Assembly (NCBI RefSeq): GCF_030253575.1
Contig: NC_080560.1
Span: 13,740,001-13,804,000, forward strand
Origin: Rhododendron vialii
Taxonomy: Eukaryota > Streptophyta > Magnoliopsida > Ericales > Ericaceae
Direction: 5' to 3'
Length of the DNA stretch: 64,000 bases
Below, piece by piece: positions 23,790 to 52,120 of this stretch. The notes under the pieces were generated by a model that saw only the letters and a program-made list of their open reading frames with translations, did no database searches and was not told where the DNA came from. Numbering within the stretch: the stretch's first letter is position 1; each line of letters begins with the position of its first letter. Both the position numbers and the translations under genes were made by a program.

Positions 23790-24636
23790 CTACAAGGTAG
23801 TTTAAGATGCGCATCATTAGGGACTCCCACCAAGCTTTACAAAACAAAGGCTACAAAAGGAATAAATCAGCTAGTTGTTTGAAAAAACAGCAACATGCAC
23901 TATCCTTCCAAATACGATACCTTTCATTTTTGGGAAATACTATGGTACCCAAACCTTATGGTGTGCCCAAATCATAAAATGCTTTGCTTTTACATGGTGA
24001 ATGTTATACCATTTGTTTTTGTTGGGAGTGCCCCCATAAATTTGATTACACAATGTCACTCCATGTGACCGTTCTAAAAATAGACTTGCGGGGTGGAATG
24101 TCAAATGTCATAAAAGACTTAATAGAAACCCTTCCTACCACCAATTGATTTTAGGAGAGATGATGGAAAAGCGGTCCAACAGTTGTAAATGTTATTACAG
24201 GGAGAACATAAAATGAGTTATTTTGCAAATGCAATGCCATTCGGGAAAATGTTATGCATCATTTGGTGAAAATGGTATGCCTTCTTTTGAAAAAAATGCA
24301 CCATTTTATGGTATTAATCTTGTTACAACATCTGTGCTTATGGTTAGCCAACTTTTTTGTTACACCCTCTCGTGGTTGAATTCATACATTCGTAACGTGA
24401 AAGTCAACAGGCCATGGGATACTGTATCCTCAGACAAAGTTGGGAATACTTTAGCATTTCCCTTTTTTTTTTTTTTTCCTTTTTTAAAATTAGAAAGACA
24501 AAACTTCTAAACTAGTCTTTGAGGGATTGGCTTACCGTCAATGTGGCACTAAAGCCAAATGTTCAACTAATTCCTCAATTTAAATACCCAAGTAAATTAC
24601 TAAAATACTCCGTAAAAGGTTAACGATAAAGCTTAC
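23790..24636 (-). other. Intron 1 of the NB-LRR gene
   Basis: Lies between donor 24637/24636 and acceptor 23790. Paralogous to 16439-17040 except for about 165 extra bp at roughly 24018-24183 (starting GTTGGGAGTGCC, ending GGTCCAACAGTTG) that the paralogue lacks, which looks like an insertion. Confidence 0.65.
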
Positions 24637-27447
24637 CTTTTCATTGAAGAGAGGTTGGGCATGGGCAGAAGAACTTCCCATGGTTGTTCGTGTCTTTTCC
24701 TTTTTCGCGTAGAAGCTTATGAGATTTGGTAGATCCGTCAATTGCAATTGACTCAGTTTACTGAAGTTCACCGCACTTGTGAGTTTATCTTCATCATTTT
24801 GTCCTTCAAATCCAACTATTTCCTCCATGATTTCACAGGATTTTACTTTTAACTTTTTTAGGTGGACAAGTCCTCTTGTGGAGAATGGGGAGAAGAGATA
24901 CTTTAACTCACATCTTTCAACAATTACCTCAATTAAATTATTGAACGACTTTGAGGGATATAGTAGCCCATGACTTTGGTCAAATGATTTTGGCTCACCA
25001 ATAAGATATTCCAAGTAATCATCACATGACCTAACTTCGAGGTATTTCAAGTCAAGAAATCTATTATTACCAACTCCTCTGTCTTGAAGCAACTTCTTCA
25101 AACCCTCGATGTCCTTGAGATATAGCGATTCAGCTTTGTCCACCAATGGGATGAACTCATTTGGCAAAGAAGACCGTTCACATTTAAATACCCTTGTCCC
25201 TGGTAAATTTGTATACGGCGTGTATCTTTGAGAAGAAATATTCGCAGAGTAAGAATACAGTCCCACTGAGATCCAAAATATCTTCAAATTCTCAAAGTTT
25301 AGGCCCTCCTTGGGCAATAGCATGACATCCGGTACATTCATCTGTAAAGTGGTTAGTTGGCCAGTACTCAATGACCACCTTAGCTCCTCGAGGGTCACAT
25401 TTCTTATGCTTTTGTCCTGCCTCTTGTGATCTGTGGCCTCCCATTGGTCAAAAGTATCTGGTAAGTATAATTCTTCCAGGCTAGTCAAATTGGATATGAC
25501 ACCTCGTGGGATAAACTCCAGCTGTCCACAATCTCTGAGATCTAACAAAAGAAGATTGGTCAACTTTTCCATCTCTTGTGGCAATGCCTCGATAGTAGAA
25601 CCCCGAAGGCTAAGCACTTCAAGGCTAGTCTTTAGATCCCCGAGTATAGCTATGTCCTCCAACTAGCAATGTTCCAGACATAACATTCCAAGGCTTGATA
25701 ATTTTGCGAGCGATGATGGTAGTTTCTGCAAACTCATTCGACATAAAATTAACACTGTAAGTTGCTTCATCCCACTAAAAAAATTGTCTGGAACTTTAAG
25801 ATATGAAAATTTGCTATTGACGAACATCAAGGTGTGGAGTTGCGGACATGTCAACTCATTCGGAAGCCCTTTAATTTTTTCAGCTCTTAATGAGATTGCT
25901 GAGTACCGAGGCCCATTAATAGGATTACGAGGCCATCGAACAGCACCATGATCGATAAGAAATGCTTCTTCCTTGCGTGCGATTGAGATGCCAACATCTC
26001 TTATGACATCATGTATCCTTACAACATTTTCATCATTGTCATTTAACAGCAGAGAAGCAGATTTGAGGGAACCAACCAGGGTACGTACAGCATCTCTTGC
26101 TTCCTCTAGCGTACGCGGGTTTTGAGAGAGCAAACACCTCGTTAAGCAATGTCTCGCCAAGTCATCGATTGAAGTCTCAACATCTTTAGGATACAAACAA
26201 CATAGCAAGAAACAAGATTTTGCATCCGAGGACCACAACATATCGTAGCTCAACTTTAAAGAAGCCAAAACACTTGGGTTAATGCCCTCAATGTTCGTGA
26301 TCATGTGCCTCTCAAGGTTATCCAGTGCATTTTTCCATGCATGATCTGGCTTACCTTTTAACGCTGCTCCAAGTGCATTTATGGCAACTGGCAAACCTTT
26401 ACATTTTTTGCACACTTCACACGCTAGATAATATATTTCTGGCCGAGACTCATCAATAGAATTTCCCGTTAGTTTCTTGAATAGGGTCCATGCTTCTGGC
26501 ATCGGTAGTTCTGCAATTGGGAAACTTCTATCGACTTTCATTCTAGTTAACAAATTTTCATTTCGAGATGTTAGCAAAACTTTGCAGCCTGTCGTCGACC
26601 CATTTACGAGAGGAATACCAATAGCTTTAATGTCCACCTCTTCCCAAATATCGTCCAATATGACGAGATATTTCTCCCCGTTGATGAATTTATTCCACAA
26701 CTTAGTTGCTCTTCCTTTTTCAGCACTTGTGGCATCCAATTCAATATCCAATCTGTCAGCTAATTTTGATTGTATTTCCTTCACATTGAGATCCTTAGAG
26801 ACAACTGCTAGTGGGACTTGCTTAAAAGTTCCATCGTGTCGCATTTTCTTGCCCACCTCCTCAACTAACGTGGTCTTACCGACGCCTCCTAACCCGTGTA
26901 CACCAATAACATTAACACTGGGATCTTTTAATGCATCCACGATATCCTTGAAGACCGGTGCTCTAGAGTCCAAGTTAATGTAATTCTTGTTGGATGGGAA
27001 CTCAAGTTCTGAAGGAGACGGCCTAGCGTGTGAAATTTCATCAAAATGGCTATCTTGAGTGAGTTTTTGGACACCCGCTATCTTCTCTTCGGCTTGTTTG
27101 CTCAGTCTGTAACGCCGCTTGATGTTAGGACATGAGCACGCAAGGCAACTCATGTTTCCCGTACCACTGCTCTGCCCCACAAGTTCCTGAACATCACGTG
27201 TCATCCTGTTCACCTCCGTGCGCCAATGCAAAACAGCATTATAAACCTCTTCACCGCGTTGATTGGCCACACAAACGTTTTCTTCAATTATTTCGCTACG
27301 ATCTTTAAGACTTCCCATTTCAGCTTGCAGATTTTCGAGGTTTGTCTTGTAGTGAATAACATATTTCCCTGCCTTGATTGCTGCTTTGACCGCTTCATCA
27401 AAGGCCAGACATCCCAACTTCTCAATTATGCCTTGAGGAGTACACAT
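24637..27447 (-). pseudogene. CC-NB-ARC-LRR resistance gene, first exon, with one stop (copy D1)
   Basis: Intracellular immune receptor of the At4g27190/RPS2-like CC-NB-LRR class. From the ATG at 27445-27447 (MCTPQGIIEKLG): coiled-coil region to about residue 100; P-loop GLGGVGKTT about 185-193; kinase-2 YLVILDDIW about 260-268; RNBS-B GCKVLLTSRN about 297; GLPL motif CKGLPVAI about 349; RNBS-D CFLLCCLYPKD about 412-422; MHD-type RIHD about 477-480; then LRRs (LEVLSLRGSTIEALP, LTNLLLLDLRDC). An upstream TTG would lengthen the frame by 21 codons, but the ATG is the likely start. The exon is 2811 bp (937 codons) with donor GAAAAG|GTAAG at 24637/24636. A single TAG at 25663-25665 (CAG in the other copies) ends the protein at 594 residues, before the LRRs. 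Apart from this the frame is open, so the loss is recent. Read-through or truncation products are possible. Confidence 0.9.
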
Positions 27448-27849
27448 TTTCAGTTCAGTCTTTTTTCCCTCCTCTGTGGAATTGTTTTCTGTGATGAAAT
27501 TCTTCGACAAGAGAAATCTCTATGTAGTCTGTTTCTGCAGGAGAGACGGAGATGAAAAGGAAGGTAAGAGCAATGCACCACACTGTATTAGCCAAAAGGA
27601 AGTATAATCGCCTTATGACTTTTTTGAAATCATATATGCCCTACATATTCCCTATAAGCAACACTGCACCTATTATTGCTAAATTTGTCCGATCGGTTCA
27701 ATAAAATCTTCAGTTTTTTCATTTATGACTAATCTTTCTAGTACGTAATGGAATCATATTATCAATTTTTTTTCTTCGTCTTCTTTCTTTGAAAATTTTT
27801 GAATTTAGCTTTTTGCAATTGGAGCTGCTTTTGTACTTTCATTGTATAC
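27448..27849 (-). promoter_or_regulatory. Upstream region of the NB-LRR gene
   Basis: No coding sequence. On the minus strand an acceptor-like TCTCTCCTGCAG lies about 80 bp before the ATG, so an untranslated first exon is possible. No convincing TATA box. Repeated at 35435-35836, 43422-43823 and 51409-51810, so all four copies kept the same upstream DNA up to the copia junction. Confidence 0.4.
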
Positions 27850-28159
27850 CCTTTATAAAGTAATGATATCTGCAATTTGGTCCCTAGAAGAGATGAAGCG
27901 CACGTGAAAATCTTTGAGAGCAACCTTGTCACGGACAAAATGAAAATCGATCTCCACATGCTTGGAGCGAGCATGGAAAACCGGGTTGGCAGTAAGATAG
28001 ATGGCTCCGATATTGTCGCACCAAAGAGACGGGGCAGTTGGAAGCGAAATGCCGAGCTCAAACAATTAAGACTGTAGCCATGACAACTCGGCAGCCGCAT
28101 CGGCTAGAGCTTTGTACTCAGACTCAGTGGATGAACGAGCCACAATGCGTTGTTTACGG
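27850..28159 (-). pseudogene. Copia polyprotein C-terminal fragment (RNase H), D1
   Basis: Minus strand reads [19 protein letters not shown] and, after a stop (TTA to TAA at 28066-28068), [34 protein letters not shown] and [10 protein letters not shown], the RNase H end of Ty1/copia polyproteins. Cut at 28159 by the hAT element. The uncut version is at 51811-52455. Confidence 0.92.
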
Positions 28160-28964
28160 CATAGTTTTAAATATCGGCCGATACGGTACGTATCGGCCGA
28201 TTCATACCGGAATTTTCGACTCCCGATTCGGATATAGGCCGATATATCGGTGAGATTGAAATTCACAGGCGTATCGGCCGGTTCCCGATACGTATCGGTC
28301 TGTAACCGATATTTGGACCGGTACGGCCGATACGGCCGATACGTATCGGTTCTGAAAAAAAAAAAAAAAAACAGAAAAACCAAAAAACAGAGCTCCTTCC
28401 ACACACAAAGCATCAAACCATCAATTCCTTCCACTTTTCACAGCTTTTTTCCTAAAATTTTGGATCTTGTCTTGGAAAATAAGTAAATAACACAACAATC
28501 TGATCATTACCTGCCGTTGGCTTTCTTATCTTCTCTTCTATCTTCATTCTTTCACAAATTTCTTTCTTCAACAAGTCACTCTTCAACATATTTCAAGAAA
28601 GGAAAAAAATTCCAAAAAAATAGTTTAAGATTCTTGAGAAATGGATGATATTGATTGCTGATGCAGAGCATTTGGAGCTGAACTGCTGATTTGGTGAAGT
28701 AAACGGAAAGAGGAGAAGAAAGGAATGGTTGTAGATTGAACTTTGAAGGTATTTGTTTCCCCTGATGCTTTGATTTGGGGTTTTTTTTTTGTTTGGGGGG
28801 GTGGCGAGAGGAGTTCTCTTTGAAAGGGAAAGAATATTTATACATTGGCAATTTTTTGTTTTCTTCTCATTATTAAGATTTTGTTAGTTTTATATTTTTT
28901 TTGGTAATTACTAATTAATGATTTTTGACATTACTTGTTTTTCATAGGTTAATCATCAAATTAA

Positions 28965-31900
28965 ATGTCGCGTGGACGTGGTGCAGGTAGTAGTGGTACT
29001 GGGTTTGATCCAAATACTCCTAGTGATGATATTGGGTGGAAGTTTGGAAAAATGGTTGAAAACAACAGAAGTAGATCACAATGCATTTTCTGTGGGAAAA
29101 TTGTGAGTGGTGGTATAACTAGGTTGAAAGAACATTTAGCACACAAAAAAGGAAAAGTGTCCTCATGTCCTAGTGTTAGTGGTGAAGTTCGGGAGTTAAT
29201 GATGAAACATTTGAAAGACAATAACAAAAAACAAGAAGATAAAAGAAAAAGACATGAGGAATTGAAGGAACAAATAAGAGCTACTCAATGTGACGAGGAA
29301 TTTGAGTATCCGGCATTTAACAATGATAGTGATGACTCAGATCCAGAAATGACCATAGCACGACAAGAAAGCGTAAGAATGCAATATGAACACGAGGAGA
29401 GACAAAGATTTCAAAACAGAACAGGGCGTAGATATCATGTAGGAGGAAGTAGTGGGGCTGGACGTAGCGGCAATCATGATATTGGGCCTCCTCCTGGTTT
29501 TTCTAAACGATGTTCTAGTGTTCACGAGACTAACACAAAAAAGCAATGGTCCAGTTTAACAACACCAGAAGCACGATTGGCAGAAATAGAGGTTGATCTT
29601 CATCGGAGTAAAGGGAAGAAACAATCGAAATTGTCTAGTCGATTCATGAAGGCAGCAAAGCAAAAATTGGGAAGGGCAGTTAGCCAATTTGTGCTATATA
29701 CATGGTTGCCATCAAACATGGTAAATTCTCCATGGCTTGAACCAATGCTTGATGTTGCTAGAGAGGTTGGGAAAGGAACAAAACTTCCAAGTTCATACGA
29801 GGTGAGTCTCACAGTTAAAGCTTACAAACATTTCTTCTAGTGTTTATGCTATTGCTATTTGGAAAATAACATTAAGCATGCATTACATTCTGTTTTATAT
29901 TTTGCTTTATTTTTGGTTATTAATTGTAGGTGGCTGAAGTTTATTTGCCTAAAGAATACGAGGCCATACAAAAATGGATAGGATCTTTGAAGACTACTTG
30001 GGAGGAGAGAGGTGTTAGCATTATGTGTGATGGATGGTCAGGACCTAGAAGGAGGCATCTCGTTAATTTTCTTGTGTATAGCAATCGTGGAACAGTTTTT
30101 CACAAGTCTATTGATGCAACAGATGTACTTAGCAGAACAGCGGATTACTACTTCGGCCTCATGGATAAGGTAGTGGAAGAAATTGGGGAGCAATATATTG
30201 TCCAAATTATAACGGACAACGAAGCTGCTATGAAGGCGGCTGGTAAGAAACTTATGGAAAAGAGGCCCCATTTGTATTGGACCGCATGCACCGCTCATTG
30301 CATTGATTTAATTTTGGAGGACATTGGTGAGAAAAAGAATGTGAAAGCGGTGTTGGAAAAGGCAAAGAAAGTCACGCGTTTTATTTATAATTATGATTGG
30401 GTCGTTAATTACATGAAAAATTACACCGATGGAAGAGATTTGTTACGGCCTGTCATCACACGCTTTGCCACCAATTTTATTACTTTGGAGAGTTTGGTTA
30501 GATACAAGATTGGTTTGAAAGATATGTTCAATTCTACTGAATGGAAAGCTACTAGATATGCTAGAATGCAAGGGGCGAAAGAAGTTAAAGATATCCTTGA
30601 ATCTAAGGATTTTTGGGCAAAAGCTGCAGATATACTAAAAATACAAGAACCGCTGGTAAAGGTACTTAGGCTTGTGGACGGGGATCGAAAACCCACGATG
30701 GGGTTTATATACGAAGCCATGGACAGGGCTAAGATGGCAATACAAAATAATTGTCGTTATTATACCGAGTATTGGAGAATTATCGACCGTCGATGGGCTA
30801 TTCAGTTACATACGGATTTGCATGCAGCAGGTAAATATTTTACATTTTTATGATGAATTAAAATATTAGTATTTAGTCCTAGTTCTTTTGAGAAAAATCT
30901 GAGCAACAAGTGATTTGGCTCCGTTCCGAAAAAAAAAATAAATATTTATTTTTTAAGAAAGTATTCTAAAACAAGGCGTAACAAGTGATATGTTATGTCA
31001 CCATCAATTTTTAGAACTTGTACTGTGTTTTCTCCGAGCAACAAGTGCCCAGGCGACTCCGAATTCATATTTAGTGGGGTCAACCGGTCAACTGAACACA
31101 GTGAACAAACTGTTGAACCCGTACATGCACATACCAATTGTGTCTTGCACGTGAAAATCCCCAGGTAAAGGTACAAGTAGCCTTTTAGGCTATAAAGCTA
31201 TGAAAACCTATTTGACTTTCTTAATACTTTATAGTACTATTTTATTATTTATTTTTATTCACTAGGAGACAGTACCAAATATGGTAGGATGTTTACCCCT
31301 TTTTCCGTGCTCAAAGTTTTACCAATTTGACTTCACCAAATAAAAAAGAGAGGAAAATAGGGAGGCTCAGTGATGAAGCGGTGCCCACTGCCCAGTGATG
31401 CCGTTCGGATTTCTAGAATGGCATTGGCGGGCAATTCAATTTGATTTTACCAAATATCATTGCATTTTATGTTCTCCTAGTCTCCTAATGATATTGCCAT
31501 AAATTGGCGGGCAATTCAATTTTGTATTTGGAGCAAAACCACTCCATTGTTAAAGGGATGCACTGCTTGAGGTGCCAAAATTGCCGACTCCAATTTTATA
31601 ATTTGTCTTTTCAACTCACTAATGATTTTTCAGTCATGGACTTTTTTAGTTGTTGCTAAATTGACAATTGCAATGTAAAAGGACATATTTGAAAATTTAT
31701 TTCATTGTTTAACTTTCTTATGGGCTCAATAAATAAATGCAGGTTATTTTCTAAATCCAATATATCAATACGGTGGCAACTTGTCTAATCATAGGGAGGT
31801 CATGGATGGAGTTAGAAAAGTAATTATGAGATTACTGCCAGATCTAAATGAGCAAGTGGAAGCCATCAACCAAGTAAGTTGTTGATTTACAGTTCTTACT

Positions 31901-33193
31901 TCTTATGCCAATATATTGCTCATTAATTTAGATTTGTGATAAAAATATATTATGATGTGCAGATTTCGGTATTTCGAAATAAAGAAGATTCTTTTGGAAC
32001 AACAGTGGCCCAAGTAGCAGTTCAAGCAACTAATCCTGGTAATTATTTAAGTGACACACTTTTTTAATTTACCATCTTCTTTTATATTATAGTCCAATAA
32101 AATACATCATCGTGAGTCTAGTATTTCTAATTTTTTTGTTATGTAGCTGAATGGTGTCCATTATGGCGTATCTGTCCCCCAACTTCAAAAAGTTGCTGTG
32201 AAAGTATTGAGTCAAACCACTTCTTCAAATTGTGAGCGAAACTGGAGTACCTTTAGCCTTATACACACAAAGACAAGGAATCGATTAAAATATCAAAAAT
32301 TAAACAAGATTGTCTATGTGTACTACAATATGAGGCTAAAGATTAGGCATGCGACTAGAAGAAGTGATGAGGAGAGAGATGATCATTTTAATCCCATTAA
32401 TCTTGATTACATCTTTGACGAGGATGATCCATTAGCTGAATGGTTGCAAGAGGAAGAGCACGCAATATTGGATGATGTAGACAATTCAGAATGGTTGGAT
32501 ACAGGTGATACGCAGAATCCCCAAAATGTAGACCTATCTGAAAACAGTTCAAGTGGAGGTCGTGGTTTGAGTCCGTCTGGTAGTGGCAGTGGGGATGATG
32601 ATGGTCCTAATGGTTGGGAAACACAAGATAATATAGTGAATCGCACTACTTATCATGAGGAGGATGGTGGAATTAGGGATTCTACACAACAACGACGACA
32701 CTCTGTATCATCTGATGATGGGGGATTGAATAGGATTAGATGTTCACGTCCTATTAGTGACATTTATACTAATCCTAATCTCAGAGACCAATTTGGACAG
32801 CTTGAAGTTGGGCAAGATCATGGGAGAGCACATCATTGGCAGCAAAGACCCATATATCCATATTATCCCCCTCAAGAACAACAATCTTATTTTAATCAAC
32901 CAGAACCACCATTTATGGGGATAGGATATCCACATCGATCTCACCAGCATTCATACAGTGGGAGCTCTTCATATGGTAGTAATCCTACGGTCAGAGAACC
33001 ATCAACACATGGGTATTCACAACAACAATCCGATAGTAGCGGCACCACCAATAATTTTGAGCACTGTAATTTCACCAACAACTTCTACGGATACGTATTT
33101 GGAGCTGCTGGGCAAAATAGTCATGGTGATGATCAATTTAATGAGGAATATGTAGATCCTGCAGTACCTCCACGTCATTCATTCTGGCATTGA
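28965..33193 (+). pseudogene. hAT transposase with frameshift, copy 1
   Basis: Inferred exons: 28965-29801, 29930-30830, 31743-31873, 31963-32038, 32147-33193, all with GT..AG introns and compatible phase up to exon 4. Features in order: BED zinc finger (C40, C43, H57, C68), DUF659/RNase H-like core with Asp in CDGWSG (~313) and in IITDNEAAM (~375), the CxxH motif WTACTAHCIDLIL (C399/H402), GYFLNPIYQYGGN in exon 3, and the hAT dimerisation block LSQTTSSNCERNWSTFS with LIHTKTRNRL in exon 5, then a Ser/Gly/Gln/His-rich tail. At the start of exon 5 the usual AEWW..YG motif is broken: AEW is in one frame and YGVSVPQLQ in another, explained by two lost bases near 32156-32164. This makes a truncated transposase unless corrected. 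The exon model is mine and not supported by transcripts. Confidence 0.82.
30831..31742 (+). other. Large intron 2 of the hAT transposase (912 bp)
   Basis: Much longer than the other introns (128, 89 and 108 bp), suggesting an insertion. It has two copies of TTGGCGGGCAATTCAATTT about 80 bp apart (31424 and 31504) and two of GAGCAACAAGTG (30901 and 31036). No coding similarity. Identical in all three hAT copies. Confidence 0.55.
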
Positions 33194-33637
33194 AGTTGTA
33201 TTAGCAAAATTATGTATGACTTAAAAGCTATGAGCTTGAAACTAGTTGTGGCTAGCGCTTATGTAATGTAAAACCTCTATGGTGTGTTTATTTTAATGTT
33301 TTCATCTTATTTTTGCTATTTATGTCAATTATATCGAAACTTATAATGTTGCATTTTTCTCATATTTGTAAAATCTTATTGACTTGCGAGTTTTGATAAA
33401 TTATCGGATATTTCACATGAAGAGAATGGGCTATTACATGTCTTAAATTAATTAAAATGTGATAATTTAAGCCAATGTTTGGGGTAAAAGTATATTTTTC
33501 AAGTTTTATACATGTTGCTGATGATTTTTAAAAATTCACGACCGCGACACCCGATTCCAGCGACGTATCACCGATATGTCCCGATACCGATATACCGCGA
33601 CCGATACCGCGACGGCGACCGATACCGCGATTTAAAA

Positions 33638-35434
33638 CTATGCCTCCAACTGGCAATGTTCCAGACATAACATTCCAAGGCTTGATAATTTTGCGAGCGA
33701 TGATGGTAGTTTCTGCAAACTCATTCGACATAAAATTAACACTGTAAGTTGCTTCATCCCACTAAAAAAATTGTCTGGAACTTTAAGATATGAAAATTTG
33801 CTATTGATGAACATCAAGGTGTGGAGTTGCGGACATGTCAACTCATTCGGAAGCCCTTTAATTTTTTCAGCTCTTAACGAGATTGCTGAGTACCGAGGCC
33901 CATTAATAGGATTACGAGGCCATCGAACAGCACCATGATCGATAAGAAATGCTTCTTCCTTGCGTGCGATTGAGATGCCAACATCTCTTATGACATCATG
34001 TATCCTTACAACATTTTCATCATTGTCATTTAACAGCAGAGAAGCAGATTTGAGGGAACCAACCAGGGTACGTACAGCATCTCTTGCTTCTTCTAGCGTA
34101 CGCGGGTTTTGAGAGAGCAAACACCTCGTTAAGCAATGTCTCGCCAAGTCATCGATTGAAGTCTCAACATCTTTAGGATACAAACAACATAGCAAGAAAC
34201 AAGATTTTGCATCCGAGGACCACAACATATCGTAGCTCAACTTTAAAGAAGCCAAAACACTTGGGTTAATGCCCTCAATGTTCGTGATCATGTGCCTCTC
34301 AAGGTTATCCAGTGCATTTTTCCATGCATGATCTGGCTTACCTTTTAACGCTGCTCCAAGTGCATTTATGGCAACTGGCAAACCTTTACATTTTTTGCAC
34401 ACTTCACACGCTAGATAATATATTTCTGGCCGAGACTCATCAATAGAATTTCCCGTTAGTTTCTTGAATAGGGTCCATGCTTCTGGCATCGGTAGTTCTG
34501 CAATTGGGAAACTTCTATCGACTTTCATTCTAGTTAACAAATTTTCATTTCGAGATGTTAGCAAAACTTTGCAGCCTGTCGTCGACCCATTTACGAGAGG
34601 AATACCAATAGCTTTAATGTCCACCTCTTCCCAAATATCGTCCAATATGACGAGATATTTCTCCCCGTTGATGAATTTATTCCACAACTTAGTTGCTCTT
34701 CCTTTTTCAGCACTTGTGGCATCCAATTCAATATCCAATCTGTCAGCTAATTTTGATTGTATTTCCTTCACATTGAGATCCTTAGAGACAACTGCTAGTG
34801 GGACTTGCTTAAAAGTTCCATCGTGTCGCATTTTCTTGCCCACCTCCTCAACTAACGTGGTCTTACCGACGCCTCCTAACCCGTGTACACCAATAACATT
34901 AACACTGGGATCTTTTAATGCATCCACGATATCCTTGAAGACCGGTGCTCTAGAGTCCAAGTTAATGTAATTCTTGTTGGATGGGAACTCAAGTTCTGAA
35001 GGAGACGGCCTAGCGTGTGAAATTTCATCAAAATGGCTATCTTGAGTGAGTTTTTGGACACCCGCTATCTTCTCTTCGGCTTGTTTGCTCAGTCTGTAAC
35101 GCCGCTTGATGTTAGGACATGAGCACGCAAGGCAACTCATGTTTCCCGTACCACTGCTCTGCCCCACAAGTTCCTGAACATCACGTGTCATCCTGTTCAC
35201 CTCCGTGCGCCAATGCAAAACAGCATTATAAACCTCTTCACCGCGTTGATTGGCCACACAAACGTTTTCTTCAATTATTTCGCTACGATCTTTAAGACTT
35301 CCCATTTCAGCTTGCAGATTTTCGAGGTTTGTCTTGTAGTGAATAACATATTTCCCTGCCTTGATTGCTGCTTTGACCGCTTCATCAAAGGCCAGACATC
35401 CCAACTTCTCAATTATGCCTTGAGGAGTACACAT
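33638..35434 (-). CDS. Truncated CC-NB-ARC protein, 598 aa, copy D2
   Basis: Same start and motifs as the D1 copy: P-loop GLGGVGKTT, kinase-2 YLVILDDIW, GCKVLLTSRN, CKGLPVAI, CFLLCCLYPKD and RIHD, all intact, with no stop. The LRR region is absent: after EHCQLE the frame enters the terminus of hAT copy 1 and stops at once, the TAG (33638-33640) being part of the CATAG end. So this locus encodes a complete CC-NB-ARC without LRRs, the CN type of receptor fragment. Such proteins can act as signalling partners or be inert. There is no native 3' UTR; polyadenylation would have to occur in antisense hAT sequence. Whether it is expressed is unknown. Confidence 0.8.
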   Translation of the reverse strand: MCTPQGIIEKLGCLAFDEAVKAAIKAGKYVIHYKTNLENLQAEMGSLKDRSEIIEENVCVANQRGEEVYNAVLHWRTEVNRMTRDVQELVGQSSGTGNMSCLACSCPNIKRRYRLSKQAEEKIAGVQKLTQDSHFDEISHARPSPSELEFPSNKNYINLDSRAPVFKDIVDALKDPSVNVIGVHGLGGVGKTTLVEEVGKKMRHDGTFKQVPLAVVSKDLNVKEIQSKLADRLDIELDATSAEKGRATKLWNKFINGEKYLVILDDIWEEVDIKAIGIPLVNGSTTGCKVLLTSRNENLLTRMKVDRSFPIAELPMPEAWTLFKKLTGNSIDESRPEIYYLACEVCKKCKGLPVAINALGAALKGKPDHAWKNALDNLERHMITNIEGINPSVLASLKLSYDMLWSSDAKSCFLLCCLYPKDVETSIDDLARHCLTRCLLSQNPRTLEEARDAVRTLVGSLKSASLLLNDNDENVVRIHDVIRDVGISIARKEEAFLIDHGAVRWPRNPINGPRYSAISLRAEKIKGLPNELTCPQLHTLMFINSKFSYLKVPDNFFSGMKQLTVLILCRMSLQKLPSSLAKLSSLGMLCLEHCQLEA

Positions 35435-36146
35435 TTTCAGTTCAGTCTTTTTTCCCTCCTCTGTGGAATTGTTTTCTGTGATGAAATTCTTCGACAAGAG
35501 AAATCTCTATGTAGTCTGTTTCTGCAGGAGAGACGGAGATGAAAAGGAAGGTAAGAGCAATGCACCACACTGTATTAGCCAAAAGGAAGTATAATCGCCT
35601 TATGACTTTTTTGAAATCATATATGCCCTACATATTCCCTATAAGCAACACTGCACCTATTATTGCTAAATTTGTCCGATCGGTTCAATAAAATCTTCAG
35701 TTTTTTCATTTATGACTAATCTTTCTAGTACGTAATGGAATCATATTATCAATTTTTTTTCTTCGTCTTCTTTCTTTGAAAATTTTTGAATTTAGCTTTT
35801 TGCAATTGGAGCTGCTTTTGTACTTTCATTGTATACCCTTTATAAAGTAATGATATCTGCAATTTGGTCCCTAGAAGAGATGAAGCGCACGTGAAAATCT
35901 TTGAGAGCAACCTTGTCACGGACAAAATGAAAATCGATCTCCACATGCTTGGAGCGAGCATGGAAAACCGGGTTGGCAGTAAGATAGATGGCTCCGATAT
36001 TGTCGCACCAAAGAGACGGGGCAGTTGGAAGCGAAATGCCGAGCTCAAACAATTAAGACTGTAGCCATGACAACTCGGCAGCCGCATCGGCTAGAGCTTT
36101 GTACTCAGACTCAGTGGATGAACGAGCCACAATGCGTTGTTTACGG
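33643..36146. repeat. Direct-repeat segment D2 (2504 bp)
   Basis: Second copy of the NB-LRR/copia segment, exactly 7987 bp from D1 and without indels. It has the D4-type bases at 33652, 33808 and 33878 and the D1-type bases from 34210 onward, so it is a mosaic. Private SNP near 34092 (CTTCTTCT for CTTCCTCT). Confidence 0.95.
35837..36146 (-). pseudogene. Copia RNase H fragment, D2
   Basis: Same reading and same internal stop as the fragment at 27850-28159; cut at 36146 by hAT copy 2. Confidence 0.92.
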
Positions 36147-41629: not shown

Positions 41630-43421
41630 CCTCCAACTGGCAATGTTCCAGACATAACATTCCAAGGCTTGATAATTTTGCGAGCGATGATGGTAGTTTC
41701 TGCAAACTCATTCGACATAAAATTAACACTGTAAGTTGCTTCATCCCACTAAAAAAATTGTCTGGAACTTTAAGATATGAAAATTTGCTATTGATGAACA
41801 TCAAGGTGTGGAGTTGCGGACATGTCAACTCATTCGGAAGCCCTTTAATTTTTTCAGCTCTTAACGAGATTGCTGAGTACCGAGGCCCATTAATAGGATT
41901 ACGAGGCCATCGAACAGCACCATGATCGATAAGAAATGCTTCTTCCTTGCGTGCGATTGAGATGCCAACATCTCTTATGACATCATGTATCCTTACAACA
42001 TTTTCATCATTGTCATTTAACAGCAGAGAAGCAGATTTGAGGGAACCAACCAGGGTACGTACAGCATCTCTTGCTTCCTCTAGCGTACGCGGGTTTTGAG
42101 AGAGCAAACACCTCGTTAAGCAATGTCTCGCCAAGTCATCGATTGAAGTCTCAACATCTTTAGGATACAAACAACATAGCAAGAAACAAGATTTTGCATC
42201 CGAGGACCACAACATATCGTAGCTCAACTTTAAAGAAGCCAAAACACTTGGGTTAATGCCCTCAATGTTCGTGATCATGTGCCTCTCAAGGTTATCCAGT
42301 GCATTTTTCCATGCATGATCTGGCTTACCTTTTAACGCTGCTCCAAGTGCATTTATGGCAACTGGCAAACCTTTACATTTTTTGCACACTTCACACGCTA
42401 GATAATATATTTCTGGCCGAGACTCATCAATAGAATTTCCCGTTAGTTTCTTGAATAGGGTCCATGCTTCTGGCATCGGTAGTTCTGCAATTGGGAAACT
42501 TCTATCGACTTTCATTCTAGTTAACAAATTTTCATTTCGAGATGTTAGCAAAACTTTGCAGCCTGTCGTCGACCCATTTACGAGAGGAATACCAATAGCT
42601 TTAATGTCCACCTCTTCCCAAATATCGTCCAATATGACGAGATATTTCTCCCCGTTGATGAATTTATTCCACAACTTAGTTGCTCTTCCTTTTTCAGCAC
42701 TTGTGGCATCCAATTCAATATCCAATCTGTCAGCTAATTTTGATTGTATTTCCTTCACATTGAGATCCTTAGAGACAACTGCTAGTGGGACTTGCTTAAA
42801 AGTTCCATCGTGTCGCATTTTCTTGCCCACCTCCTCAACTAACGTGGTCTTACCGACGCCTCCTAACCCGTGTACACCAATAACATTAACACTGGGATCT
42901 TTTAATGCATCCACGATATCCTTGAAGACCGGTGCTCTAGAGTCCAAGTTAATGTAATTCTTGTTGGATGGGAACTCAAGTTCTGAAGGAGACGGCCTAG
43001 CGTGTGAAATTTCATCAAAATGGCTATCTTGAGTGAGTTTTTGGACACCCGCTATCTTCTCTTCGGCTTGTTTGCTCAGTCTGTAACGCCGCTTGATGTT
43101 AGGACATGAGCACGCAAGGCAACTCATGTTTCCCGTACCACTGCTCTGCCCCACAAGTTCCTGAACATCACGTGTCATCCTGTTCACCTCCGTGCGCCAA
43201 TGCAAAACAGCATTATAAACCTCTTCACCGCGTTGATTGGCCACACAAACGTTTTCTTCAATTATTTCGCTACGATCTTTAAGACTTCCCATTTCAGCTT
43301 GCAGATTTTCGAGGTTTGTCTTGTAGTGAATAACATATTTCCCTGCCTTGATTGCTGCTTTGACCGCTTCATCAAAGGCCAGACATCCCAACTTCTCAAT
43401 TATGCCTTGAGGAGTACACAT
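41625..43421 (-). CDS. Truncated CC-NB-ARC protein, 598 aa, copy D3
   Basis: Protein identical to the D2 copy as far as I can read: open from MCTPQG to EHCQLEA, all NB-ARC motifs intact, no LRRs, stop supplied by the end of hAT copy 2 (41625-41627). The upstream region is the same as in D1, so promoter activity, if any, should be shared. Its transcription runs head-on towards the hAT transposase gene on the other strand. Confidence 0.8.
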   Translation of the reverse strand: MCTPQGIIEKLGCLAFDEAVKAAIKAGKYVIHYKTNLENLQAEMGSLKDRSEIIEENVCVANQRGEEVYNAVLHWRTEVNRMTRDVQELVGQSSGTGNMSCLACSCPNIKRRYRLSKQAEEKIAGVQKLTQDSHFDEISHARPSPSELEFPSNKNYINLDSRAPVFKDIVDALKDPSVNVIGVHGLGGVGKTTLVEEVGKKMRHDGTFKQVPLAVVSKDLNVKEIQSKLADRLDIELDATSAEKGRATKLWNKFINGEKYLVILDDIWEEVDIKAIGIPLVNGSTTGCKVLLTSRNENLLTRMKVDRSFPIAELPMPEAWTLFKKLTGNSIDESRPEIYYLACEVCKKCKGLPVAINALGAALKGKPDHAWKNALDNLERHMITNIEGINPSVLASLKLSYDMLWSSDAKSCFLLCCLYPKDVETSIDDLARHCLTRCLLSQNPRTLEEARDAVRTLVGSLKSASLLLNDNDENVVRIHDVIRDVGISIARKEEAFLIDHGAVRWPRNPINGPRYSAISLRAEKIKGLPNELTCPQLHTLMFINSKFSYLKVPDNFFSGMKQLTVLILCRMSLQKLPSSLAKLSSLGMLCLEHCQLEA

Positions 43422-44133
43422 TTTCAGTTCAGTCTTTTTTCCCTCCTCTGTGGAATTGTTTTCTGTGATGAAATTCTTCGACAAGAGAAATCTCTATGTA
43501 GTCTGTTTCTGCAGGAGAGACGGAGATGAAAAGGAAGGTAAGAGCAATGCACCACACTGTATTAGCCAAAAGGAAGTATAATCGCCTTATGACTTTTTTG
43601 AAATCATATATGCCCTACATATTCCCTATAAGCAACACTGCACCTATTATTGCTAAATTTGTCCGATCGGTTCAATAAAATCTTCAGTTTTTTCATTTAT
43701 GACTAATCTTTCTAGTACGTAATGGAATCATATTATCAATTTTTTTTCTTCGTCTTCTTTCTTTGAAAATTTTTGAATTTAGCTTTTTGCAATTGGAGCT
43801 GCTTTTGTACTTTCATTGTATACCCTTTATAAAGTAATGATATCTGCAATTTGGTCCCTAGAAGAGATGAAGCGCACGTGAAAATCTTTGAGAGCAACCT
43901 TGTCACGGACAAAATGAAAATCGATCTCCACATGCTTGGAGCGAGCATGGAAAACCGGGTTGGCAGTAAGATAGATGGCTCCGATATTGTCGCACCAAAG
44001 AGACGGGGCAGTTGGAAGCGAAATGCCGAGCTCAAACAATTAAGACTGTAGCCATGACAACTCGGCAGCCGCATCGGCTAGAGCTTTGTACTCAGACTCA
44101 GTGGATGAACGAGCCACAATGCGTTGTTTACGG
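41630..44133. repeat. Direct-repeat segment D3 (2504 bp)
   Basis: Third copy, same length. Same mosaic SNP pattern as D2 (D4-like at the three left sites, D1-like to the right), without D2's private SNP. Confidence 0.95.
43824..44133 (-). pseudogene. Copia RNase H fragment, D3
   Basis: Same as 27850-28159; cut at 44133 by hAT copy 3. Confidence 0.92.
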
Positions 44134-47100
44134 CATAGTTTTAAATATCGGCCGATACGGTACGTATCGGCCGATTCATACCGGAATTTTCGACTCCCGA
44201 TTCGGATATAGGCCGATATATCGGTGAGATTGAAATTCACAGGCGTATCGGCCGGTTCCCGATACGTATCGGTCTGTAACCGATATTTGGACCGGTACGG
44301 CCGATACGGCCGATACGTATCGGTTCTGAAAAAAAAAAAAAAAAACAGAAAAACCAAAAAACAGAGCTCCTTCCACACACAAAGCATCAAACCATCAATT
44401 CCTTCCACTTTTCACAGCTTTTTTCCTAAAATTTTGGATCTTGTCTTGGAAAATAAGTAAATAACACAACAATCTGATCATTACCTGCCGTTGGCTTTCT
44501 TATCTTCTCTTCTATCTTCATTCTTTCACAAATTTCTTTCTTCAACAAGTCACTCTTCAACATATTTCAAGAAAGGAAAAAAATTCCAAAAAAATAGTTT
44601 AAGATTCTTGAGAAATGGATGATATTGATTGCTGATGCAGAGCATTTGGAGCTGAACTGCTGATTTGGTGAAGTAAACGGAAAGAGGAGAAGAAAGGAAT
44701 GGTTGTAGATTGAACTTTGAAGGTATTTGTTTCCCCTGATGCTTTGATTTGGGGTTTTTTTTTTGTTTGGGGGGGTGGCGAGAGGAGTTCTCTTTGAAAG
44801 GGAAAGAATATTTATACATTGGCAATTTTTTGTTTTCTTCTCATTATTAAGATTTTGTTAGTTTTATATTTTTTTTGGTAATTACTAATTAATGATTTTT
44901 GACATTACTTGTTTTTCATAGGTTAATCATCAAATTAAATGTCGCGTGGACGTGGTGCAGGTAGTAGTGGTACTGGGTTTGATCCAAATACTCCTAGTGA
45001 TGATATTGGGTGGAAGTTTGGAAAAATGGTTGAAAACAACAGAAGTAGATCACAATGCATTTTCTGTGGGAAAATTGTGAGTGGTGGTATAACTAGGTTG
45101 AAAGAACATTTAGCACACAAAAAAGGAAAAGTGTCCTCATGTCCTAGTGTTAGTGGTGAAGTTCGGGAGTTAATGATGAAACATTTGAAAGACAATAACA
45201 AAAAACAAGAAGATAAAAGAAAAAGACATGAGGAATTGAAGGAACAAATAAGAGCTACTCAATGTGACGAGGAATTTGAGTATCCGGCATTTAACAATGA
45301 TAGTGATGACTCAGATCCAGAAATGACCATAGCACGACAAGAAAGCGTAAGAATGCAATATGAACACGAGGAGAGACAAAGATTTCAAAACAGAACAGGG
45401 CGTAGATATCATGTAGGAGGAAGTAGTGGGGCTGGACGTAGCGGCAATCATGATATTGGGCCTCCTCCTGGTTTTTCTAAACGATGTTCTAGTGTTCACG
45501 AGACTAACACAAAAAAGCAATGGTCCAGTTTAACAACACCAGAAGCACGATTGGCAGAAATAGAGGTTGATCTTCATCGGAGTAAAGGGAAGAAACAATC
45601 GAAATTGTCTAGTCGATTCATGAAGGCAGCAAAGCAAAAATTGGGAAGGGCAGTTAGCCAATTTGTGCTATATACATGGTTGCCATCAAACATGGTAAAT
45701 TCTCCATGGCTTGAACCAATGCTTGATGTTGCTAGAGAGGTTGGGAAAGGAACAAAACTTCCAAGTTCATACGAGGTGAGTCTCACAGTTAAAGCTTACA
45801 AACATTTCTTCTAGTGTTTATGCTATTGCTATTTGGAAAATAACATTAAGCATGCATTACATTCTGTTTTATATTTTGCTTTATTTTTGGTTATTAATTG
45901 TAGGTGGCTGAAGTTTATTTGCCTAAAGAATACGAGGCCATACAAAAATGGATAGGATCTTTGAAGACTACTTGGGAGGAGAGAGGTGTTAGCATTATGT
46001 GTGATGGATGGTCAGGACCTAGAAGGAGGCATCTCGTTAATTTTCTTGTGTATAGCAATCGTGGAACAGTTTTTCACAAGTCTATTGATGCAACAGATGT
46101 ACTTAGCAGAACAGCGGATTACTACTTCGGCCTCATGGATAAGGTAGTGGAAGAAATTGGGGAGCAATATATTGTCCAAATTATAACGGACAACGAAGCT
46201 GCTATGAAGGCGGCTGGTAAGAAACTTATGGAAAAAAGGCCCCATTTGTATTGGACCGCATGCACCGCTCATTGCATTGATTTAATTTTGGAGGACATTG
46301 GTGAGAAAAAGAATGTGAAAGCGGTGTTGGAAAAGGCAAAGAAAGTCACGCGTTTTATTTATAATTATGATTGGGTCGTTAATTACATGAAAAATTACAC
46401 CGATGGAAGAGATTTGTTACGGCCTGTCATCACACGCTTTGCCACCAATTTTATTACTTTGGAGAGTTTGGTTAGATACAAGATTGGTTTGAAAGATATG
46501 TTCAATTCTACTGAATGGAAAGCTACTAGATATGCTAGAATGCAAGGGGCGAAAGAAGTTAAAGATATCCTTGAATCTAAGGATTTTTGGGCAAAAGCTG
46601 CAGATATACTAAAAATACAAGAACCGCTGGTAAAGGTACTTAGGCTTGTGGACGGGGATCGAAAACCCACGATGGGGTTTATATACGAAGCCATGGACAG
46701 GGCTAAGATGGCAATACAAAATAATTGTCGTTATTATACCGAGTATTGGAGAATTATCGACCGTCGATGGGCTATTCAGTTACATACGGATTTGCATGCA
46801 GCAGGTAAATATTTTACATTTTTATGATGAATTAAAATATTAGTATTTAGTCCTAGTTCTTTTGAGAAAAATCTGAGCAACAAGTGATTTGGCTCCGTTC
46901 CGAAAAAAAAAATAAATATTTATTTTTTAAGAAAGTATTCTAAAACAAGGCGTAACAAGTGATATGTTATGTCACCATCAATTTTTAGAACTTGTACTGT
47001 GTTTTCTCCGAGCAACAAGTGCCCAGGCGACTCCGAATTCATATTTAGTGGGGTCAACCGGTCAACTGAACACAGTGAACAAACTGTTGAACCCGTACAT

Positions 47101-49616
47101 GCACATACCAATTGTGTCTTGCACGTGAAAATCCCCAGGTAAAGGTACAAGTAGCCTTTTAGGCTATAAAGCTATGAAAACCTATTTGACTTTCTTAATA
47201 CTTTATAGTACTATTTTATTATTTATTTTTATTCACTAGGAGACAGTACCAAATATGGTAGGATGTTTACCCCTTTTTCCGTGCTCAAAGTTTTACCAAT
47301 TTGACTTCACCAAATAAAAAAGAGAGGAAAATAGGGAGGCTCAGTGATGAAGCGGTGCCCACTGCCCAGTGATGCCGTTCGGATTTCTAGAATGGCATTG
47401 GCGGGCAATTCAATTTGATTTTACCAAATATCATTGCATTTTATGTTCTCCTAGTCTCCTAATGATATTGCCATAAATTGGCGGGCAATTCAATTTTGTA
47501 TTTGGAGCAAAACCACTCCATTGTTAAAGGGATGCACTGCTTGAGGTGCCAAAATTGCCGACTCCAATTTTATAATTTGTCTTTTCAACTCACTAATGAT
47601 TTTTCAGTCATGGACTTTTTTAGTTGTTGCTAAATTGACAATTGCAATGTAAAAGGACATATTTGAAAATTTATTTCATTGTTTAACTTTCTTATGGGCT
47701 CAATAAATAAATGCAGGTTATTTTCTAAATCCAATATATCAATACGGTGGCAACTTGTCTAATCATAGGGAGGTCATGGATGGAGTTAGAAAAGTAATTA
47801 TGAGATTACTGCCAGATCTAAATGAGCAAGTGGAAGCCATCAACCAAGTAAGTTGTTGATATACAGTTCTTACTTCTTATGCCAATATATTGCTCATTAA
47901 TTTAGATTTGTGATAAAAATATATTATGATGTGCAGATTTCGGTATTTCGAAATAAAGAAGATTCTTTTGGAACAACAGTGGCCCAAGTAGCAGTTCAAG
48001 CAACTAATCCTGGTAATTATTTAAGTGACACACTTTTTTAATTTACCATCTTCTTTTATATTATAGTCCAATAAAATACATCATCGTGAGTCTAGTATTT
48101 CTAATTTTTTTGTTATGTAGCTGAATGGTGTCCATTATGGCGTATCTGTCCCCCAACTTCAAAAAGTTGCTGTGAAAGTATTGAGTCAAACCACTTCTTC
48201 AAATTGTGAGCGAAACTGGAGTACCTTTAGCCTTATACACACAAAGACAAGGAATCGATTAAAATATCAAAAATTAAACAAGATTGTCTATGTGTACTAC
48301 AATATGAGGCTAAAGATTAGGCATGCGACTAGAAGAAGTGATGAGGAGAGAGATGATCATTTTAATCCCATTAATCTTGATTACATCTTTGACGAGGATG
48401 ATCCATTAGCTGAATGGTTGCAAGAGGAAGAGCACGCAATATTGGATGATGTAGACAATTCAGAATGGTTGGATACAGGTGATACGCAGAATCCCCAAAA
48501 TGTAGACCTATCTGAAAACAGTTCAAGTGGAGGTCGTGGTTTGAGTCCGTCTGGTAGTGGCAGTGGGGATGATGATGGTCCTAATGGTTGGGAAACACAA
48601 GATAATATAGTGAATCGCACTACTTATCATGAGGAGGATGGTGGAATTAGGGATTCTACACAACAACGACGACACTCTGTATCATCTGATGATGGGGGAT
48701 TGAATAGGATTAGATGTTCACGTCCTATTAGTGACATTTATACTAATCCTAATCTCAGAGACCAATTTGGACAGCTTGAAGTTGGGCAAGATCATGGGAG
48801 AGCACATCATTGGCAGCAAAGACCCATATATCCATATTATCCCCCTCAAGAACAGCAATCTTATTTTAATCAACCAGAACCACCATTTATGGGGATAGGA
48901 TATCCACATCGATCTCACCAGCATTCATACAGTGGGAGCTCTTCATATGGTAGTAATCCTACGGTCAGAGAACCATCAACACATGGGTATTCACAACAAC
49001 AATCCGATAGTAGCGGCACCACCAATAATTTTGAGCACTGTAATTTCACCAACAACTTCTACGGATACGTATTTGGAGCTGCTGGGCAAAATAGTCATGG
49101 TGATGATCAATTTAATGAGGAATATGTAGATCCTGCAGTACCTCCACGTCATTCATTCTGGCATTGAAGTTGTATTAGCAAAATTATGTATGACTTAAAA
49201 GCTATGAGCTTGAAACTAGTTGTGGCTAGCGCTTATGTAATGTAAAACCTCTATGGTGTGTTTATTTTAATGTTTTCATCTTATTTTTGCTATTTATGTC
49301 AATTATATCGAAACTTATAATGTTGCATTTTTCTCATATTTGTAAAATCTTATTGACTTGCGAGTTTTGATAAATTATCGGATATTTCACATGAAGAGAA
49401 TGGGCTATTACATGTCTTAAATTAATTAAAATGTGATAATTTAAGCCAATGTTTGGGGTAAAAGTATATTTTTCAAGTTTTATACATGTTGCTGATGATT
49501 TTTAAAAATTCACGACCGCGACACCCGATTCCAGCGACGTATCACCGATATGTCCCGATACCGATATACCGCGACCGATACCGCGACGGCGACCGATACC
49601 GCGATTTAAAACTATG
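44134..49616 (+). mobile_element. hAT transposon copy 3, 5483 bp
   Basis: Same ends, flanks and length as copies 1 and 2. Private differences seen: GGAAAAAAGGCCCC near 46234 (AAAAGAGG in the others; synonymous for the transposase) and GATATACAG near 47860 (GATTTACAG in the others). Confidence 0.93.
44939..49167 (+). pseudogene. hAT transposase with frameshift, copy 3
   Basis: Exons by offset: 44939-45775, 45904-46804, 47717-47847, 47937-48012, 48121-49167. Same domains and same frameshift as copies 1 and 2. Confidence 0.82.
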
Positions 49617-51408
49617 CCTCCAACTGGCAATGTTCCAGACATAACATTCCAAGGCTTGATAATTTTGCGAGCGATGATGGTAGTTTCTGCAAACTCATTC
49701 GACATAAAATTAACACTGTAAGTTGCTTCATCCCACTAAAAAAATTGTCTGGAACTTTAAGATATGAAAATTTGCTATTGATGAACATCAAGGTGTGGAG
49801 TTGCGGACATGTCAACTCATTCGGAAGCCCTTTAATTTTTTCAGCTCTTAACGAGATTGCTGAGTACCGAGGCCCATTAATAGGATTACGAGGCCATCGA
49901 ACAGCACCATGATCGATAAGAAATGCTTCTTCCTTGCGTGCGATTGAGATGCCAACATCTCTTATGACATCATGTATCCTTACAACATTTTCATCATTGT
50001 CATTTAACAGCAGAGAAGCAGATTTGAGGGAACCAACCAGGGTACGTACAGCATCTCTTGCTTCCTCTAGCGTACGCGGGTTTTGAGAGAGCAAACACCT
50101 CGTTAAGCAATGTCTCGCCAAGTCATCGATTGAAGTCTCAACATCTTTAGGATACAAACAACATAGCAAGAAACAAGATTTTGAATCCGAGGACCACAAC
50201 ATATCGTAGCTCACCTTTAAAGAAGCCCAAACACTTGGGTTAATGCCCTCAATGTTCGTGATCATGTGCCTCTCAAGGTTATCCAGTGCATTTTTCCATG
50301 CATGATCTGGCTTACCTTTTAACGCTGCTCCAAGTGCATTTATGGCAACTGGCAAACCTTTACATTTTTTGCACACTTCGCACGCTAGATAATATATTTC
50401 TAGCTGAGACTCATCAATAGAATTTCCCGTTAGTTTCTTGAATAGGGTCCATGCTTCTGGCATCGGTAGTTCTGCAATTGGGAAACTTCTATCGACTTTC
50501 ATTCTAGTCAACAAATTTTCATTTCGAGATGTTAGCAAAACTTTGCAGCCTGTCGTCGACCCATTTATGAGAGGAATACCAATAGCTTTAATGTCCACCT
50601 CTTCCCAAATATCGTCCAATATGACGAGATATTTCTCCCCGTTGATGAATTTATTCCACAACTTAGTTGCTCTTCCTTTTTCATCACTTGTGGCCTCCAA
50701 TTCAATATCCAATCTATCAGCTAATTTTGATTGTATTTCCTTCACATTGAGATCCTTAGAGACAACTGCTAGTGGGACTTGCTTAAAAGTTCCATCGTGT
50801 CGCATTTTCTTGCCCACCTCCTCAACTAACGTGGTCTTACCGACGCCTCCTAACCCGTGTACTCCAATAACATTAACACTGGGATCTTTTAATGCATCCA
50901 CGATATCCTTGAAGACCGGTGCTCTAGAGTCCAAGTTAATGTAATTCTTGTTGGATGGGAACTCAAGTTCTGAAGGAGACGGCCTAGCGTGTGAAATTTC
51001 ATCAAAATGGCTATCTTGAGTGAGTTTTTGGACACCCGCTATCTTCTCTTCGGCTTGTTTGCTCAGTCTGTAACGCCGCTTGATGTTAGGACATGAGCAC
51101 GCAAGGCAACTCATGTTTCCCGTACCACTGCTCTACCCCACAAGTTCCTGAACATCACGTGTCATCCTGTTCGCCTCCGTGCGCCAATGCAAAACAGCAT
51201 TATAAACCTCTTCACCGCGTTGATTGGCCACACAAACGTTTTCTTCAATTATTTCGCTACGATCTTTAAGACTTCCCATTTCAGCTTCCAGATTTTCGAG
51301 GTTTGTCTTGTAGTGAATAACATATTTCCCTGCTTTGATTGCTGCTTTGACCGCTTCATCGAAGGCCAGACATCCCAACTTCTCAATTATGCCTTCAGGA
51401 GTACACAT
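49612..51408 (-). pseudogene. CC-NB-ARC pseudogene, copy D4
   Basis: Same structure as D2/D3 but with a TAG (51133-51135) at codon 92, where the other copies have CAG, between the coiled coil and the NB-ARC. It has further amino-acid changes (e.g. ELEATSDEKG for ELDATSAEKG, SVWASLKVSYD for SVLASLKLSYD). The NB-ARC frame downstream is open from MSCLACSC (51114) to the hAT-supplied stop. No LRRs. This is the most diverged copy and probably represents the other parental haplotype. Confidence 0.88.
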
Positions 51409-52120
51409 TTTCAGTTCAGTCTTTTTTCCCTCCTCTGTGGAATTGTTTTCTGTGATGAAATTCTTCGACAAGAGAAATCTCTAGGTAGTCTGTTTCTGCA
51501 GGAGAGACGGAGATGAAAAGGAAGGTAAGAGCAATGCACCACACTGTATTAGCCAAAACGAAGTATAATCGCCTTATGACTTTTTTGAAATCATATATGC
51601 CCTACATATTCCCTATAAGCAACACTGCACCTATTATTGCTAAATTTGTCCGATCGGTTCAATAAAATCTTCAGTTTTTTCATTTATGACTAATCTTTCT
51701 AGTACGTAATGGAATCATATTATCAATTTTTTTTCTTGGTCTTCTTTCTTTGAAAATTTTTAAATTTAGCTTTTTGCAATTGGAGCTGCTTTTGTACTTT
51801 CATTGTATACCCTTTATAAAGTAATGATATCTGCAATTTGGTCCCTAGAAGAGATGAAGCGCACGTGAAAATCTTTGAGAGCAACCTTGTCACGGACAAA
51901 ATGAAAATCGATCTCCACATGCTTGGAGCGAGCATGGAAAACCGGGTTGGCAGTAAGATAGATGGCTCCGATATTGTCGCACCAAAGAGACGAGGCAGTT
52001 GGAAGCGAAATGCCGAGCTCAAACAATTAAGACTGTAGCCATGACAACTCGGCAGCCGCATCGGCTAGAGCTTTGTACTCAGACTCAGTGGATGAACGAG
52101 CCACAATGCGTTGTTTACGG
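49617..52120. repeat. Direct-repeat segment D4 (2504 bp)
   Basis: Last copy. Identical to D2/D3 at the left diagnostic sites but differing from D1-D3 at 20 or more positions from 50184 rightward. At 52120 the copia sequence continues uninterrupted (ACGG|GCCGACC), i.e. this is an empty hAT site. Confidence 0.95.

Follow-up and report, generated by a model that had tools for sequence, protein, structure and literature searches.

A segment that joins the front half of an NB-LRR gene to the end of a copia element occurs four times in tandem in a 64,000-nucleotide stretch of the Rhododendron vialii genome (hereafter the window; C4:13740001-13804000, which we place firmly in haplotype A), with a hAT transposon at every seam and none at the left or right outer border. 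We consider it probable that this array originated by unequal exchange in trans between hAT insertions at two offset sites, followed by one or more unequal crossovers. This explanation fits the lack of an outer hAT, the clean empty sites at the two borders, the unmatched flanks at the seams, the haplotype-level divergence between the outermost copies of the segment, and the mosaic structure of the middle ones. A first-pass annotation, made from the letters alone, had already proposed two hAT insertions on different chromatids or haplotypes and a second exchange; every feature that we found fits that proposal and supports it, short of proving it.

By sequence comparison within the window, the array consists of four copies of the segment, here called A (2,504 bp), separated by three copies of the hAT (5,483 bp), with a period of exactly 7,987 bp. 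The A copies, A0 to A3, start at 25656, 33643, 41630 and 49617 (25656..28159, 33643..36146, 41630..44133 and 49617..52120), and the hAT copies, H0 to H2, occupy 28160..33642, 36147..41629 and 44134..49616, all on the plus strand. The four start positions confirm the period given by the first-pass annotation, and its statement that the segment was amplified four times holds for A, whereas the hAT is present three times. Each A contains the front half of the NB-LRR together with its upstream stretch, on the minus strand, and the RNase H end of the copia, a name given by eye from the reading frame. The left border of the array, 25655..25656, is referred to as site X and lies in the NB-LRR; the right border, 52120..52121, is site Y and lies in the copia.

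All three hATs have GTTTACGG on their left, which is the flank of site Y (28152..28159, plus strand, at H0), and CCTCCAAC on their right, which is the flank of site X (33643..33650, plus strand, at H0). Counted by hand, the two octamers match at 1 of 8 positions, and the claim that the flanks are identical at all three elements and mutually unmatched is thus borne out at the level of individual bases. To place this mismatch in context, relatives of the element were collected from the same genome: a first batch of 40 stretches (three places were fetched twice, with different limits) included 29 with both ends, and a second added 14 further distinct elements with both ends, 43 in total, leaving out the array copies, stretches that did not show both ends, repeated loci, and a false pairing of two elements (L084). 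Since relatives were recognised by their ends, decayed elements are under-represented in this set. The expectation that hAT elements make 8-bp duplications holds well in the family, being perfect in 41/43 relatives and matching at 7 of 8 positions in the other two (2/43). All 43 share one set of element ends, which are also those of H0, with 13-bp perfect terminal inverted repeats, CATAGTTTTAAAT and ATTTAAAACTATG, and this rules out other placements of the hAT ends. The annotation had allowed for a matching duplication appearing once the true ends were fixed; with the ends now fixed by the relatives, the mismatch persists. Given the intact duplications and the shared ends, the lack of a duplication is peculiar to this locus and is explained neither by the family nor by misplaced ends. 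Insertions that join two loci, with one flank from each, were found in 0/43 relatives.

Both sites also exist empty, as had been claimed, and the outer borders of the array preserve them cleanly. At X, the single-copy LRR half of the NB-LRR (24580..25662, minus strand; LRR_RPS2 and LRR_8) shares its reading frame with the NB half of A0, and the frame runs uninterrupted across 25655/25656; at Y, the copia RNase H frame is likewise uninterrupted across 52120/52121, and the copia continues to the right of the array. Site X is without a gap in 8/8 fetched NB-LRR paralogues, one of which (L057) has a gap about 40 bases off, and site Y is without a gap in 6/6 copia relatives that span it (seven were fetched), three of the six being gapped elsewhere. 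No excision footprint was found at X or Y in the alignments to these eight paralogues and six spanning relatives. The sequence CTATGT, on the left flank of X (25645-25660), is similar to CTATG at the right end of the hAT, which leads BLAST to extend the repeat by 6 bases beyond the border, with one gap; the likeness is probably due to chance.

The absence of both hAT and footprint from either outer border bears directly on two established routes to tandem copies. Non-allelic homologous recombination (NAHR) in cis between flanking elements leaves an element at both outer borders, and we therefore rejected it. The Ac/Ds-like alternative transposition that the annotation had listed as its second choice is disfavoured, since in its reversed-ends form a hAT with its duplication remains at one outer border, and none is present. 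In the maize Ac/dhAT duplications made by reversed ends, as described in the available parts of PMC3744419, an element stands at the start of each repeat and the copies number exactly two, and among the cases in the maize genome the outer element keeps its 8-bp duplication in 2/3. The rhododendron array resembles these cases in the superfamily of the element, the direct tandem orientation of the copies, and the unmatched element flanks at the seam (PMC3744419), and differs from them in having four copies and no outer element. The maize authors take an absent footprint as an argument against loss of an element (PMC3744419); with footprints absent at X and Y, the same argument applies to a lost outer element here.

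The A copies differ at 27 sites, and the distribution of these single-nucleotide polymorphisms (SNPs) bears on how the array was enlarged. Three sites are private to A0 (A positions 10, 166 and 236), 23 are private to A3 (spanning 568 to 2377), and one is private to A1 (449), so that A0 and A3 differ at 26/2,504 positions, or 1.04%. All three A0-private sites lie to the left of all 23 A3-private sites, for which the probability under random scattering would be 1/C(26,3) = 1/2600 = 3.8e-4, in a test that is post hoc. It follows from this arrangement that A1 and A2 are mosaics: with A0 denoted a and A3, which is b-type throughout, denoted b, and the two read as alleles, A1 and A2 begin on the left as b and continue as a after a single switch, which falls between A positions 236 and 568 (33878 to 34210 in A1, 41865 to 42197 in A2). 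Differences between a and b are similarly dense on both sides of the switch (3 in 236 bp and 23 in 1,937 bp), and there are none in the intervening 331 bp (chance 0.03 at the mean rate). An unequal crossover within L-A(a)-hAT-A(b)-R, pairing A(b) with A(a), would produce just such a middle copy, in which a b-type left part is followed by an a-type right part.

Two other histories would leave the same mosaic. In the first, the tandem copies already existed when ordinary exchanges with a homologue bearing a single copy replaced A0 at its left end and A3 at its right end. The states at the variable sites permit such replacement, and unequal crossovers are expected to be rarer than ordinary ones. 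Two independent breakpoints would then have to fall in the same interval between SNPs, for which the simulated chance is 0.068, and the unmatched hAT flanks would be left unexplained; we regard this history as unlikely. It is compatible with the first step of the trans exchange that we favour, and the probabilities we assign to the various readings therefore sum to more than one. In the second, a circle comprising A and one hAT was looped out of a chromosome that had insertions at both X and Y, and this circle, or a multimer of it, recombined by homology, in one step, into an intact A on another chromosome. The product would have the same unflanked structure and the same pattern of sites, with A0 resident on the left and circle-derived on the right, A1 and A2 circle-derived, A3 circle-derived on the left and resident on the right, and one shared breakpoint. 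This route presupposes a chromosome with both insertions, the release of a circle, its probable multimerisation and its re-entry, and we consider it rather improbable.

The extent of divergence between the outer copies can be set against the heterozygosity of the plant. For R. vialii, a k-mer heterozygosity of 0.89% and 3,152,185 SNPs between haplotypes over about 458 Mb of syntenic sequence are given in the available portions of the genome report (PMC10338486), the latter amounting by our calculation to 0.69%. At 1.04%, the outer A copies thus differ as two haplotypes would, a level compatible with other origins too. Among the 40 of 54 candidates that were scored, the best long match to A outside the array in the haplotype A genome reaches 78%, and three short pieces (48-81 bp) match at 83-85%; the lack of any longer match above 78% leaves no second locus as the source of b. 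The hAT copies, on the other hand, differ mutually by only 1 to 3 of 5,483 bases (one difference private to H0, two to H2), and A1 and A2 by one, far below the distance between a and b, which places the enlargement recently relative to the a/b split. Under an exchange in trans between haplotypes, this needs no extra assumption, while a sister-chromatid origin would leave a two-copy array waiting long before it expanded. An attempt to order the three hATs, using the full-length relative L029 as outgroup, failed, all three differences being singletons. Among the coding a/b sites, with the A1-only site excluded, 7 are silent and 14 are replacements, including two stops, a split that does not separate allelic divergence from divergence after duplication. 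Compared with the protein relative P0002, b matches at A positions 612 and 1068 and a at 166, 568, 786 and 1519, and from these comparisons both a and b look to carry derived states.

The same divergence also bears on a more direct role for the transposase, in which the two ends of one hAT, drawn from sister chromatids or from a single excised copy, became attached to Y and X, each on its own chromatid, to give L-A-hAT-A-R. This would likewise yield unmatched flanks and a hAT at the seam alone, and tandem duplications in which one end is unmatched are reported for hAT-type elements (PMC3744419). If the hAT derived from X or Y, a footprint would be expected at one border, where none is seen, and A0 would equal A3 at birth, so that their 1.04% divergence needs a long-lived two-copy array. 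We hold this origin to be very doubtful. The same low standing applies to its broader form, in which a cut-and-paste hAT would itself have made the duplication, its ends joined to two chromatids, as a eukaryotic counterpart of the unflanked arrays formed by bacterial insertion sequences (IS), and would thereby have seeded an array of truncated immune receptors.

In the trans exchange that we favour, each of two chromosomes would have carried one copy of the same hAT, similarly oriented and offset by 2.5 kb: the first would have had it at Y, within the copia, and the second at X, within the NB-LRR. Pairing of the two hATs and crossing over between them would yield L-A(a)-hAT-A(b)-R, in which the empty X comes from the first chromosome, the empty Y from the second, and the hAT joins Y to X. 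Next, an unequal crossover of the ordinary sort, in which A(b) on one strand exchanged with A(a) on the other within A positions 236-568, would have added a third unit with an A that, read from the left, is b-type up to the breakpoint and a-type beyond it; one further unequal exchange would have duplicated that unit. The pattern left by the enlargement is observed, and these events are what we infer from it. The hAT would have served as a homology patch, and its transposase need not have acted in the rearrangement.

Several points weigh against this account. Neither parental single-insertion haplotype was seen in haplotype A, the one surveyed. Two near-identical full-length insertions, 2.5 kb apart and in one orientation, constitute a demanding coincidence, and haplotype A has only one other full-length copy among the matches listed. 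The SNP pattern is matched equally well by an A-hAT circle recombining into a resident allele, and the divergence between a and b could instead have arisen after an older duplication. Finally, target preference counts partly for the account and partly against it. The target motif derived from 28 perfect duplications is approximately GTnnnnAC; when all 8-mers of the window are ranked on it, the octamer at X, CCTCCAAC, falls within the top 0.23% and that at Y, GTTTACGG, within the top 17% (score 3.47 on the other strand vs 0.09). The latter is a mediocre target, with 4/28 real duplications scoring lower, and by itself would not be singled out as one.

One could also suspect that the array is an artefact of assembly, in which a haplotype with a hAT at X and a haplotype with a hAT at Y were walked as one path. 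The HiFi reads average about 18 kb (PMC10338486), which is shorter than the 26.5-kb array, and average single reads therefore do not span the copy number. One seam with both neighbouring A copies amounts to 10.5 kb, within read length, and the array lies on what is very probably a gap-free contig of the published assembly (PMC10338486). Such a walk would moreover yield two A copies and one hAT, not four and three, and the units carry private differences (A1 at 449, one in H0 and two in H2). Taken together, these observations make an artefact hardly credible.

The closest precedent to the proposed exchange is the Drosophila Bar duplication (B1), which carries a roo element at its seam and is attributed, in the available text of PMC13322080, to unequal crossing over, the partners being two roo elements inserted at offset positions on different chromatids. 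Both are tandem duplications with a single element between copies, and the two copies at Bar are also substantially diverged (PMC13322080). Several marks of a Bar-type origin, namely a single element per seam, none outside, clean empty borders, and flanks from two sites, are found in rhododendron. Bar differs in involving a retrotransposon, a 203.5-kb unit and two copies, compared with a hAT, a 2.5-kb unit and four copies here, where in addition a later exchange is readable from SNPs. A plant gene array with a mobile element between its repeats is also known from the tandem amplification of EPSPS in Kochia, for which the authors propose unequal crossing over and where the element bears FHY3/FAR1 (PMC6808082, as far as its available text goes). 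The Kochia element is present at both outer borders as well (flanked), unlike the rhododendron hAT, which is present at neither.

The architecture is also that of certain bacterial amplifications. hAT elements move by cut and paste, in which they differ from replicative IS elements. The bacterial arrays, for which we take the term "unflanked" from PMC13423834, have a locus-joining element between copies and none at the borders, and the available parts of that report propose successive replicative IS transposition as their origin. No hAT-bridged unflanked NLR array was found in a literature search of titles and abstract openings, which is weak evidence of absence, and the portions of PMC4270019 and PMC3014980 available to us contain no closer case. 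The array is an unusually complete example of an already known kind. The origin of gene arrays is often unreadable by the time they are sequenced; in this one, 27 kb still show the two sites in their empty state, the transposon that bridges them, and the traces that a later enlargement left among the SNPs. The stepwise model of offset insertions, exchange in trans, and unequal crossover inside the unit is testable in one heterozygous plant, of which the second haplotype has been assembled according to PMC10338486.

The transposase coding blocks of H0 extend over 28965..33193 on the plus strand and comprise BED (28965-29840), DUF659 (29930-30853) and a dimerisation region (32198-33193). BED and DUF659 score above the Pfam cut-off, and Dimer_Tnp_hAT reaches 20.0 bits vs a cut-off of 21.4; a homologue from R. 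molle (P0121), listed with DUF659 and the dimerisation domain, aligns to the hAT in three blocks. The only other full-length copy among the matches listed, L029 on C8 (5,462 bp), is 98.2% identical from position 32 on and has a perfect target duplication, ATACCAGC. The BED and DUF659 blocks are open in the array hATs (28965-30853 and its copies), and L029 (998-6459) has a frame break in each. Judging from these frames, haplotype A, in which two full-length transposase genes were found, may have had the better one tripled by the array.

The family also has at least two short classes, one of 491-493 bp (L009-L023) and one mostly of 737-950 bp with a single member of 1,380 (L035-L048 and L072-L089), with perfect 8-bp duplications in nearly all. 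One member of 746 bp (L078/L085, C4:8341535), whose duplication GGAAGGAG is perfect, has a 67% match to this NB-LRR at a distance of about 0.4 kb. A possible second tandem case, formed by two family members 3.3 kb apart at about 40.25 Mb on C4, was rejected, the intervening repeat being the element itself, with no shared flanks reported.

The description of the locus as a resistance-gene array is overstated, since no copy encodes a complete NB-LRR: none of the four has a complete open frame. The NB-ARC domain in segment A is matched with an E-value of 6.4e-44. In A0, the NB half (25663..27510, minus strand) is the only one joined to the LRR half, and its NB-ARC frame ends at a TAG (25663-25665) where the other three copies have CAG. 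In A1 (33638..35497, minus strand), the NB-ARC frame is open, cut at X, and ends at a stop just inside the hAT end (...QLEA), and that of A2 (41625..43484, minus strand) does the same. The frame in A3 (49612..51114, minus strand) is shorter, the codon that includes A position 1519 (51133-51135 in the window) being an in-frame TAG. Numbered from the TTG of the listed frame, the stops fall at codon 616 in A0 and codon 113 in A3. Any function of the array copies would, from these frames, be that of truncated receptors. The best named matches to the NB protein are P0002 of R. griersonianum (90% over 84%) and P0003 of R. simsii (66%), the former continuous across X (HCKLEDIAIL, vs HC*LEDIAIL in A0).

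Elsewhere in the window, a second copia-type element at 54285-57090 has a reverse transcriptase domain and an RNase H that, by eye, is unlike the one at Y. A 136-bp tandem repeat in two copies with 99% matches lies at 8523-8794, and an 85-bp tandem repeat in 2.7 copies at 62241-62470. Between them, some 370 bp at 15198-15564 are self-complementary (84%) and resemble a fold-back element.

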